Below are positions 28,554 to 32,463 of a DNA stretch of 43,957 nt, piece by piece (the first letter of the stretch is position 1; each line of letters starts with the position of its first letter). Source of the DNA: Thermoplasmata archaeon (GTDB taxonomy: Archaea > Thermoplasmatota > Thermoplasmata > Lutacidiplasmatales > UBA184); contig DASPVQ010000028.1 of the NCBI GenBank assembly GCA_035622275.1, positions 1 through 43,957 on the forward strand, given 5' to 3'. The notes beneath the pieces were generated by a model, which was not told where the DNA came from, searched no databases, and saw nothing but the letters and a program-made list of their open reading frames with translations. The position numbers and the translations under genes were made by a program.

Positions 28554-28847
28554 TCAGCCCCCGCTGAACGTGGGCACGACCGTGAGCCGGACGTCCCGCT
28601 CGATCGCGGTGTCCAGCGGGATCGGCGTCTCGCCGTCGAGCACCGCGCTCCCCTCGGGCGCCAGGCCGGTCGCGCGGAGCACGCTGCGCACGAGCGTGCC
28701 CGCGGGCACGACCAGACGACGCCGCTCGACGCGCCCGGCCCGCGCGAGCTCGAGGTGGACGGTGACGCGAGCGGGGGAGGCGCTGAGGGGGAGACGTCCC
28801 GACGTCCGGAGCCGGGTCCGGGCGTCTTTTGAACTCCCGCGATGCAT
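28554..28847 (-). CDS. MoaD/ThiS/SAMP-like ubiquitin-fold protein with C-terminal Gly-Gly
   Basis: Beta-grasp protein ending in VVPTFSGG, the diglycine end needed for activation by an E1-like enzyme. Core elements are VTVHLEL, RRLVVPAGTLVRSVLRATGL and GSAVLDGETPIPLDTAIERD, matching small archaeal modifier and sulfur-carrier proteins. The start is a real problem: no in-frame ATG, GTG or TTG lies between the 3' end of the tRNA-Ser gene and the first beta strand. The nearest start that keeps the strand is the ATG at 28847, inside the tRNA variable arm; a GTG at about 28721 would remove the first strand. Whether it acts in protein conjugation or in cofactor sulfur transfer cannot be told. Confidence 0.75.
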   Translation of the reverse strand: MHRGSSKDARTRLRTSGRLPLSASPARVTVHLELARAGRVERRRLVVPAGTLVRSVLRATGLAPEGSAVLDGETPIPLDTAIERDVRLTVVPTFSGG

Positions 28848-28900
28848 ACGCACCACCAGATCTCGAATCTGGCGCCTTGGCCGAGCTAGGCTACCTCAGC
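28781..28900 (-). tRNA. tRNA-Ser (anticodon CGA) with a 33-nt intron in the T-loop
   Basis: Mature length is 87 nt, as expected for a type II tRNA. Read on the minus strand: acceptor GCTGAGG (28894-28900) pairs 7/7 with CCTCAGC (28782-28788); D arm GCC/GGC with the GG of the loop; anticodon stem CCAGA/TCTGG around loop TTCGAGA (anticodon CGA); variable arm GGTGC/GCATC; T-stem GGGAG (28834-28838) pairs 5/5 with CTCCC (28789-28793). The T-loop is TTCAAA, then 33 extra bases, then T before the 3' half. G73 is at 28781 and CCA is not encoded. A CTTAAG promoter element lies about 28 bp upstream. Confidence 0.88.
28795..28827 (-). other. Intron of tRNA-Ser, inserted at position 59/60
   Basis: 33 bases separate TTCAAA from T-CTCCC of the T-arm. 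The intron ends can pair with the 3' exon: AGACG (28823-28827) with CGTCT (28792-28796), followed by CCCG with CGGG across a single bulged A. This is a relaxed rather than a canonical bulge-helix-bulge motif. The cut site is ambiguous by one base because A or T could be nucleotide 60. Confidence 0.75.
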
Positions 28901-28925
28901 ACCCGTGCCGAAGGGAGCGGCGGCG

Positions 28926-28934
28926 GGCTTAAGC
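28926..28934 (-). promoter_or_regulatory. TATA-like element of the tRNA-Ser gene
   Basis: GCTTAAGCC on the minus strand, centred close to 29 bp upstream of the tRNA 5' end, the normal archaeal spacing. Confidence 0.6.
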
Positions 28935-28965
28935 GCTTTTGTCGGAATCCGCAGGGCGGAAACCC

Positions 28966-30219: not shown

Positions 30220-32463
30220 ATGCTCGGCGGCGGCGTCATCCCGCGCCGCCCGTACCTGCTCGTCGGACCGGCCGGCACCGGCAAGTCGACGCTCGCGATC
30301 GAGTTCCTGTGCGAGGGCGCGCGCCGCGGCGAGCGCGTGCTGCTCGTCACGCTCGAGGAACCCCCGAACGAGATGCGCGTGAACCACCGGGGGCTGTCGA
30401 GCGAGTTCGACCGGGTCGACGTCTTCGACGCGATCCCCGACGTGATGCGTTACGAGCGCGTTCCGTTCAAGGACATCTCGGCGGTCCGACAGGCGATGCC
30501 GTTCGGGCACGTGCCGCTCGTCATCCGGCGCACTCCCGAGCTCACCGGGGTCGAGGTGACGATCACCGCGCTCGAGCAGATGCTGCGCAGTGAGGTGGCG
30601 CGCAAGGGCTACACGCGCGTCGTCATCGACTCGCTGACCGCGTTGCAGTACTTCTGCATGAAGGGATTCAACGAGGTCGCCGGCGCGCAGATGTTCCTGC
30701 GCTTTCTCTCCGATCTCCGGGTCACGACGTTCCTCACGGTCGAGTCCCCGCTCGAGGACGTCGACACGACCGAGCGCGCGCTCGCGCGCGGCGAGATCCG
30801 CCTCTTTCGCTGGGAGCTCGACGGCAAGACCGTTCGGGCGATCGGCGTCGAGAAGCTGCGCGGCGGCTCGCACGACGTGCGCCTGCATCCCTACCGCATC
30901 GGACCGCAGGGCATCGACGTGCAGCTCGGCGTCACGATCTCGCGCGATACCCGGCGCATCATCGAACCGACGCCCCTGGTCGAGCTCGCCGTGACCGTGC
31001 CGTCCGGCGCGGTCGGCTCGCCGCTCGACCCGCTCACGGACGAGGTCGCGGACCTCGTGGCCGTCGGCGCGGACGTCGGCGCCATCCGGACGGAGATCGA
31101 GGCCGCGCTCGATGCCGTGAACCGCGGGGACCGCGTCGCCGCCTCGGGCCACATCGCGGCCGCCTCGGCGCTCAGCATGGATCTCGCGGGCGGCTACCGT
31201 GCTCCCGGCGTCGACGCCCCGAGCACGGGTTCCGATCCCGGCTCGATCGCCCGGCGCCGGATCATCGCCCGCGGCGACTCGGTGCGGGCTGGGGTCGCCC
31301 CGACGGAGCTCCCGGCAAGCGCCGAGCTCGAGCCGCAGCTGCGCCGGGTGTTGGGCGCGCTCCCCCGCGGTCCGCCCGCGGCCAGCGTGTCGCCGGCGCC
31401 GTCTCCGCCGGCCGTGGCGCCGGTGCCGGGGGTTCCGGCGCGAGAGGTCCCCAGCCCGAGCGCACCGCTCCCGCCGCCGGCCACCCTCGTCGCTCCCCCC
31501 GCGCCGCCGGCTCCCAACCCCATCGCGCCGGCGTCGGTCGCCCCGCCGACCCCGACCCCGGGCCCGGCGGCGGCCCCCGTCCCGAGGCCCGCCCCGACTC
31601 CCTCGGTCGCGGCCCCGGCTCGCGCTGGGGCGGAAGCGGCGGCGGCGCCCGCGAGTCCGTCGCCGATCCCTCTCGCGAACCCCGCACCCACGGCCCCGAC
31701 GCCACCACCCCCCGTGGTGACGGCTTCCGTGGTCACGCCGCCGTCCCCTCCACCGCCCGCGCCCGCACCGCCCGCACCGCGGACGGCGGCCGCTCCGCCC
31801 CAGCGTCCTCCCGCTCCCCCCTCCCCACCGATGCTCCCCGCGCGACACGCGCCGCCGCCGCCTCCACCGCCTCCCGCTCCCGAGCGCCCTCCGCCGCCGG
31901 CCGCACGCCAGCCACCGCCGCCGCTACCCAGTCCGCCCTACGTGGCGAGGGCTCCGCCCCCGGCCGCACCGCCGGTGGCGAGCCCGCCCCCTCCGCCGTT
32001 GCCCATCGCCCCCCCGCCAGTGCCCGCGGCTCCGCTCCCGGCCGCTCGCGCCCCCACCGGCGCGGCCGCAGCCGCTCCGATCCAAGGCTCCGAGGCCGCC
32101 GCGGCCCCGACGCCCGCCACGGCACCGGCCCCGGTGCCCTCCGAGCCGGCGGGCCCGCCGCGGCGACAACGCAAGCGGGCGGCGAAGGCGGGCAAGCGCT
32201 CCAACGAGCCGGCCACCGGTCCGCCGCCTCCCGAGGACGCGGCGGCGACGGCGGGCACCGGGCCCGCCGCCCGCGAGGGCGATGCCGAGGCAGAGGCCGG
32301 CGTGACGGATGCCGCGACCGGCCGCAGGCGGTCCGCGCGACGACGCAGGTCGGCGACGGCCGCGACGGCCGAGCCCGCGCCGGCCCCCGGTCCTTCGGGC
32401 ACCCCGCCCGAGCCGCCGCCCGCCCCGGCCCCGTCGGAGAGTGCGCCGCCCGAGGCAAAGTGA
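30220..32463 (+). CDS. KaiC/RAD55-family ATPase with long proline-rich tail
   Basis: RecA-fold ATPase, 747 aa from the first ATG. Walker A GPAGTGKST (residues 16-24), catalytic Glu pair in LLVTLEEPP, Walker B RVVIDSLTAL, and a KaiC-type core to about residue 245. Residues 270-330 are helical; from about 385 to 650 the chain is mostly Pro and Ala, with runs of seven prolines, ending in basic then Pro-rich sequence. The usual N-terminal block RISTGNAGLDT lies upstream of the ATG in the same frame (30187-30219), yet no standard start exists back to the TGA at 30088. The true start is therefore unknown or the sequence has a frameshift. It overlaps the next ATPase gene (GTGA). Confidence 0.82.
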   Translation: MLGGGVIPRRPYLLVGPAGTGKSTLAIEFLCEGARRGERVLLVTLEEPPNEMRVNHRGLSSEFDRVDVFDAIPDVMRYERVPFKDISAVRQAMPFGHVPLVIRRTPELTGVEVTITALEQMLRSEVARKGYTRVVIDSLTALQYFCMKGFNEVAGAQMFLRFLSDLRVTTFLTVESPLEDVDTTERALARGEIRLFRWELDGKTVRAIGVEKLRGGSHDVRLHPYRIGPQGIDVQLGVTISRDTRRIIEPTPLVELAVTVPSGAVGSPLDPLTDEVADLVAVGADVGAIRTEIEAALDAVNRGDRVAASGHIAAASALSMDLAGGYRAPGVDAPSTGSDPGSIARRRIIARGDSVRAGVAPTELPASAELEPQLRRVLGALPRGPPAASVSPAPSPPAVAPVPGVPAREVPSPSAPLPPPATLVAPPAPPAPNPIAPASVAPPTPTPGPAAAPVPRPAPTPSVAAPARAGAEAAAAPASPSPIPLANPAPTAPTPPPPVVTASVVTPPSPPPPAPAPPAPRTAAAPPQRPPAPPSPPMLPARHAPPPPPPPPAPERPPPPAARQPPPPLPSPPYVARAPPPAAPPVASPPPPPLPIAPPPVPAAPLPAARAPTGAAAAAPIQGSEAAAAPTPATAPAPVPSEPAGPPRRQRKRAAKAGKRSNEPATGPPPPEDAAATAGTGPAAREGDAEAEAGVTDAATGRRRSARRRRSATAATAEPAPAPGPSGTPPEPPPAPAPSESAPPEAK

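Follow-up and report, generated by a model that had tools for sequence, protein, structure and literature searches.

A tRNA-Ser(CGA) gene with 33 additional nucleotides inside its T loop, in a soil archaeon of the Thermoplasmata, raises the question of whether the gene is functional and, if so, how the insert would be removed. The gene lies on the minus strand at 28781..28900 of the window (the whole stretch of 43,957 nucleotides that was analysed), and measures 120 nt with the intron and 87 nt when spliced. A sequence-only reading of the window had proposed an archaeal host and a tRNA-Ser(CGA) running from 28900 to 28781; the host is indeed an archaeon with a Lutacidiplasmatales-type genome, and the gene was borne out to the base by the ARAGORN call after splicing. 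Read in that direction, the minus strand starts GCTGAGG TA GCC... CCAGA TTCGAGA TCTGG ... and ends GGGAG TTCAAA AGACGCCCGGACCCGGCTCCGGACGTCGGGACG T CTCCC CCTCAGC G, in which AGACGCCCGGACCCGGCTCCGGACGTCGGGACG is the intron. The 5' exon (28828..28900, minus strand; tRNA positions 1-59) covers the acceptor, D arm, anticodon CGA, variable arm, 5' T stem and TTCAAA; the 33-nt intron between positions 59 and 60 occupies 28795..28827 on the same strand; and the 3' exon (28781..28794, minus strand) extends from position 60 to the discriminator G73. The spliced junction is predicted to read ...GGGAGTTCAAA joined to TCTCCC.... The 59/60 site is a listed tRNA intron insertion point, and the literature agrees with the earlier expectation that a T-loop position would be surprising in this lineage (PMC4090602).

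In the unspliced sequence, no tRNA was found in the window by ARAGORN, nor by Rfam at the gathering score, so that T-loop-intron tRNA genes such as this one escape common finders; the 5' part alone matches RF00005, weakly, at 21.8 bits. After in-silico removal of the 33 nt, the tRNA is complete and ARAGORN calls tRNA-Ser(CGA). Only excision at 59/60 restores what the uninterrupted orthologues read, GGGAG TTCAAA T CTCCC, and this exact agreement confirmed the intron position that had been proposed. The insert is not a product of chance, because most relatives have an insert at the same place and because its stem covaries.

Full-length matches to tRNA-Ser(CGA) were present in most of the 101 family genomes searched. 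An insert between the same two bases was read out at 56 loci, 53 of them with exactly 33 nt, and 12 further loci were read out without an insert; five of these (L066-L070) share the anticodon arm and body of tRNA-Ser(CGA), and these close orthologues read GGGAGTTCAAATCTCCC, the exact empty site. A comparison of the same tRNA in related genomes, as the earlier reading had suggested, was extended by a pattern scan of named genomes, which gave 76 loci titled as Thermoplasmata/Thermoplasmatota MAGs, except for one bacterium and one Ca. Lutacidiplasma silvani. The intron is present at the same site in 70 of the 76 and absent in six, all six reading exactly GGGAGTTCAAATCTCCC; the genome sets behind the two locus counts (56 + 12; 76) overlap, so the counts are not independent. 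One intron, that of L158, is 32 nt long. The neighbours that the gene has in the window (zinc-ribbon protein, DUF, TFB) recur beside five of the six intron-less loci and 68 of the 70 intron-bearing ones, and the five are natural empty sites because they combine the exact sequence with these neighbours. Against RF00005, the intron-less orthologues score 57-62 bits, and they are called Ser(CGA). Across the intron-bearing loci the exons are nearly frozen (5' exon near-invariant, 3' exon identical in 56/56), while the intron sequence drifts and its stem is kept by covariation. The variable arm (28840-28856) is almost frozen in intron-bearing tRNA-Ser(CGA) and differs in each of the five intron-less close orthologues L066-L070. 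A second, uninterrupted tRNA-Ser(CGA), named by the earlier reading as an observation that would count against it, was looked for elsewhere in the genome and not found.

The compared sequences indicate that the Ser(CGA) intron forms a near-canonical bulge-helix-bulge (BHB), in which the fourth central pair is an A.G mismatch. U54-U55-C56 (28831..28833, minus strand), the 5' strand of the central helix, can pair with the third- to fifth-last intron bases in all 56 intron-bearing loci; in the window these are GGA (28797..28799, minus strand), and over 51 distinct introns they are G followed twice by A or G (GRR). From its second base onward, the intron folds into a hairpin with the bases that precede GRR, beginning with a covarying helix (h') between GACG (28823..28826) and CGUC (28801..28804), both on the minus strand. 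Over the 51 distinct introns, this inner helix is paired in 77.6% of cells, compared with 62.0% (SD 1.5) when the 3' partners are shuffled, a value as high being reached in 0 of 2000 shuffles, and with 35-49% in slid-partner controls. In a 12-sequence subset, nine of ten inner pairs have changes on both sides. A 3-nt bulge is found at each splice site, AA|N and NN|U, on opposite strands and flanked by helices; the central helix consists of 3 bp (UUC:GRR) plus the A.G mismatch, where the strict BHB form has 4 bp. The GACG:CGUC helix is present in the free-energy minimum of the Ser(CGA) arm; folded in isolation, the T arm gains about 3.4 kcal/mol when the central helix is left open (-22.5 vs -19.1), and the central helix therefore rests on comparison and not on energy. 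The sequence-only reading had instead paired the intron with the 3' exon (AGACG/CGTCT), a helix that was discarded, because it would occupy bases of the 3' T stem and the loci do not conserve it; the helix that covaries is the intron-internal GACG:CGUC. Its verdict that the motif is not a canonical BHB did not hold either, given GACG:CGUC, UUC:GRR in 56/56 loci and the 3-nt bulges.

The gene also proved not to be a lone oddity. Searched with RF00005, the whole genome gave 30 tRNAs over threshold and 12 weak matches, and the weak matches include T-loop-split genes for Ala(GGC), Ser(GCT), Ser(GGA), Gln(CTG), Gly(TCC), Lys(TTT), Arg(TCG) and Asp(GTC). Asn(GTT) is T-loop-split although its RF00005 match is over threshold, and Leu(TAG) was added by way of a covariance model, bringing the number of tRNA genes with a T-loop intron to at least 11 in this genome. 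The split genes all read TTC[AG]AA, then the intron, then T60, and in nine tRNA genes other than Ser(CGA) the order TTCRAA, intron, T comes with 3 or 4 central pairs. Among tRNAs with G57, all four central pairs form in five of six, the exception being Asn(GTT), whose central helix is broken; in Gln(CTG), Gly(TCC) and Arg(TCG), the BHB is also the fold of lowest free energy. Nine single-intron genes, Ser(CGA) included, were tested by in-silico splicing and gave the expected isotype, a test that is weaker for Gln and Arg, which ARAGORN calls unspliced too. When the introns of ten isotypes were listed, only a CGGAAC-like 3' end looked shared, and this is an end that the BHB itself requires. Since TTCRAA and position 60 are common to most tRNAs, the same motif is usable in many of them, and it is used in many tRNAs of the family.

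Other interruptions accompany those of the T loop. Leu(TAG) (L250, G000:C5:15300-16100) carries another intron in its D loop, with resolved borders and a four-pair central helix. Probable D-loop introns were seen in a CAT tRNA (Met/Ile; L179, G000:C17:6850-7300), in Arg(GCG) (L181, G000:C20:198800-199350) and, besides its T-loop intron, in Lys(TTT) (L187, G000:C13:11250-11800); a simple scan found no clean BHB at these three. ARAGORN reported anticodon-loop introns in Tyr, Met and Leu(TAA). A probable tRNA-Trp(CCA) (L186, G000:C27:94650-95200) appears to have a long anticodon-loop intron with box C/D-like motifs, and tRNA-Trp introns with box C/D motifs are known in Euryarchaeota. Altogether, some 17 of about 42 located tRNA genes (~40%) are interrupted; no tRNA gene for His, Pro(TGG), Pro(GGG) or Glu(TTC) was located. 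Two Ile(GAT) matches near contig ends (G000:C3:48325-48399 and G000:C19:532-606) are perhaps one gene at overlapping ends.

The distribution of these introns in the class was assessed with a covariance model (R1) built from 12 Ser(CGA) T-arm modules of equal length; Ser(CGA) modules only were used because MAFFT misaligned the T-arm modules of ten isotypes. R1 matches were found, usually several per genome, in 36 of 38 family genomes that are >=90% complete, and in three of 165 other Thermoplasmata genomes, one each, these counts being lower bounds, as R1 may under-detect introns in G57 tRNAs. Two of the three outside genomes, which belong to another Thermoplasmata family, have a tRNA-Ser(GGA) with a single T-loop intron (L252, G196:C47; L253, G198:C166), possibly an independent gain.

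The candidate splicing enzyme is encoded by the sole PF01974 gene of the genome, an ORF of 354 aa (EndA) in which the domain occurs twice; a single two-domain PF01974 gene is likewise present in 30 of 31 family genomes, with no match in the remaining one. The best PDB match is the Methanopyrus kandleri enzyme 5x89 (E 1e-29), followed by Archaeoglobus fulgidus enzymes. In the catalytic half, Tyr, His and Lys are found in the preserved motifs KTGFKYG, HARYLV and VRK, giving two fused domains in a single gene with one catalytic Tyr/His/Lys set, in the C half. The N half has a conserved LPRGG...KTP segment, in which a compensating RNA contact might lie. In a comparison made by sequence only and confined to A. 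fulgidus, M. jannaschii and intron-poor Thermoplasmata, EndA has no lysine-bearing CSL/ASL loop insertion before the YG motif, nor the conserved lysine at that site; PDB numbering places both the CSL lysine (K44) and the ASL lysine (K161) before the YG motif. By these features the genome's EndA is assigned to the alpha-prime-2 layout, and it lacks the loops that go with broad specificity. One RtcB ligase is encoded in the genome.

What is known of such enzymes bears on whether this one would suffice. Alpha-prime-2 enzymes are described as narrow and (alpha-beta)2 or epsilon-2 enzymes as broad (PMC6379350, PMC12397907), although the ability to cleave relaxed motifs is ascribed to homodimers by one group (PMC8707768). 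According to one review, tRNA introns are few in Euryarchaeota whose enzyme is of the alpha4 or alpha2 type, and they sit at the canonical position (PMC4090602); another lists M. kandleri and Methanothermobacter with multiple-intron tRNAs (PMC4033280). Cleavage of the Ser(CGA) site by the genome's EndA is not assured, because EndA of the A. fulgidus type is said to demand the canonical motif (PMC6379350, PMC4033280).

These considerations leave one reading in which we place high confidence, namely that the locus is a functional tRNA-Ser(CGA) gene, interrupted at 59/60 by an archaeal BHB intron that is spliced by EndA and RtcB. The gene would be transcribed into a precursor whose outer helix is the T stem GGGAG:CUCCC, whose central helix joins the T-loop UUC to the GRR near the intron 3' end and continues into the A57.G mismatch, and whose inner helix is the intron hairpin starting with GACG:CGUC. 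A single alpha-prime-2 endonuclease would cut within both of the 3-nt bulges (AA|N and NN|U), and RtcB would join the exons.

The strongest competing explanation is that more permissive machinery, either a second EndA subunit that has escaped recognition or some factor specific to the host, removes the intron and that the fit to a BHB is incidental. Such machinery would accommodate the A57 tRNAs with three central pairs instead of four, the broken central helix of tRNA-Asn(GTT), and the probable D-loop inserts of Lys, Met/Ile(CAT) and Arg(GCG). We nevertheless consider it unlikely, as the genome has one PF01974 gene and 30 of 31 family genomes a single two-domain one, EndA lacks the loop insertion in the comparison given above, and the full 4-bp central helix is found in five of six G57 introns. 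The earlier suggestion that a permissive endonuclease may be needed is thus unsupported by an EndA of the alpha-prime-2 type without broad-specificity loops.

Features outside the tRNA bear on a further explanation. About 30-40 bases upstream of tRNA-Ser(CGA) lies an A-rich patch (28929..28940, minus strand), apparent in 75 upstream sequences as A-rich positions -39 to -36 and -30 to -28 against a background of 73.5% GC, which is probably an archaeal BRE/TATA-type promoter. Of the 269 serine codons in nine window ORFs, 106 are UCG, more than any other. That the gene is instead a decaying pseudogene with a random insertion, its UCG codons being read by tRNA-Ser(TGA) through wobble, would suit the intact tRNA-Ser(TGA) of the genome, but it is very improbable when the exons are frozen across dozens of species with drift confined to the intron, the insert is kept at 59/60, almost always at 33 nt and with a covarying stem, the upstream patch is kept, and UCG ranks first among the serine codons. 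An assembly or binning artefact, conceivable in an assembly fragmented into 29 contigs, can be dismissed almost entirely, as the same structure recurs in dozens of separately assembled genomes from several projects.

Further features were seen around the gene. The GGGT immediately before the tRNA (28901-28904), conserved in 81-97% of 75 relatives, could base-pair with the trailer and so lengthen the acceptor helix across the processing sites. Within about ten bases after the tRNA, on the same strand, an open frame (28556-28773) with no obvious ATG start shows a MoaD/ThiS-type ubiquitin-like resemblance, as judged from reading its translation only. An ORF at 30220-32463 combines an N-terminal part that resembles KaiC/RadA with a very long C-terminal part rich in proline and alanine.

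For the family as a whole, we lean, with less confidence than for the single gene, towards the view that this Thermoplasmata family filled its tRNA genes with introns, mostly in the T loop and some in the D loop, yet retained an alpha-prime-2 endonuclease devoid of the loops. If this is true, no broad-specificity enzyme was required for many noncanonical introns to evolve, since half of a near-strict BHB comes from the T-loop TTCRAA that nearly all tRNAs share, and the rule that intron diversity follows endonuclease type would be broken. Reviews link noncanonical tRNA introns to (alpha-beta)2 or epsilon-2 endonucleases and portray Euryarchaeota with alpha-prime-2 enzymes as poor in introns, those present being canonically placed (PMC4090602, PMC4033280, PMC6379350); the family is an apparent exception. 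With numerous related genomes, naturally empty sites and only one, simple enzyme, it allows the idea of co-evolution to be tested. The genome paper on Lutacidiplasmatales used tRNAscan-SE in archaeal mode and the word intron is absent from its main text; no report of T-loop introns for this lineage was found in the literature searched, whose coverage excluded most subscription journals and preprints. As far as that literature shows, what is new is the lineage and the occurrence of many T-loop introns alongside an alpha-prime-2 enzyme, and it is this combination that appears to be the unusual part.

Noncanonical tRNA introns are reported to be pervasive in Thermoproteales and in Asgard soil archaea (PMC11291895), and both invite comparison. 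In the noncanonical BHB introns of Thermoproteales tRNAs (Sugahara 2008 and Fujishima 2010, as summarised in PMC4090602 and PMC4033280), the 59/60 position class and the BHB logic are the same, many isotypes are likewise affected, with several introns per tRNA, and intron transposition between isotypes is documented; however, the endonuclease there is (alpha-beta)2, whereas here it is alpha-prime-2, in Thermoplasmata. In the Asgard Atabeyarchaeia and Freyarchaeia, also soil archaea, most tRNA genes are interrupted (92-95%), often noncanonically (PMC11291895); these belong to another phylum, while here about 40% of located tRNA genes are interrupted and the T loop is the main noncanonical site. 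As for the enzyme, the M. kandleri EndA (5x89) lacks CSL and ASL (PMC6379350), as does that of this genome, yet it is described as (alpha-beta)2, whereas here the N and C halves form one natural ORF. The alpha-prime-2 EndA of A. fulgidus and Thermoplasma acidophilum is likewise a single polypeptide whose N half is degenerate and whose C half is catalytic (PMC6379350), and it is similar to the genome's EndA in length around the active-site loop; those enzymes are listed as narrow (PMC6379350), whereas the Lutacidiplasmatales family has many T-loop introns.
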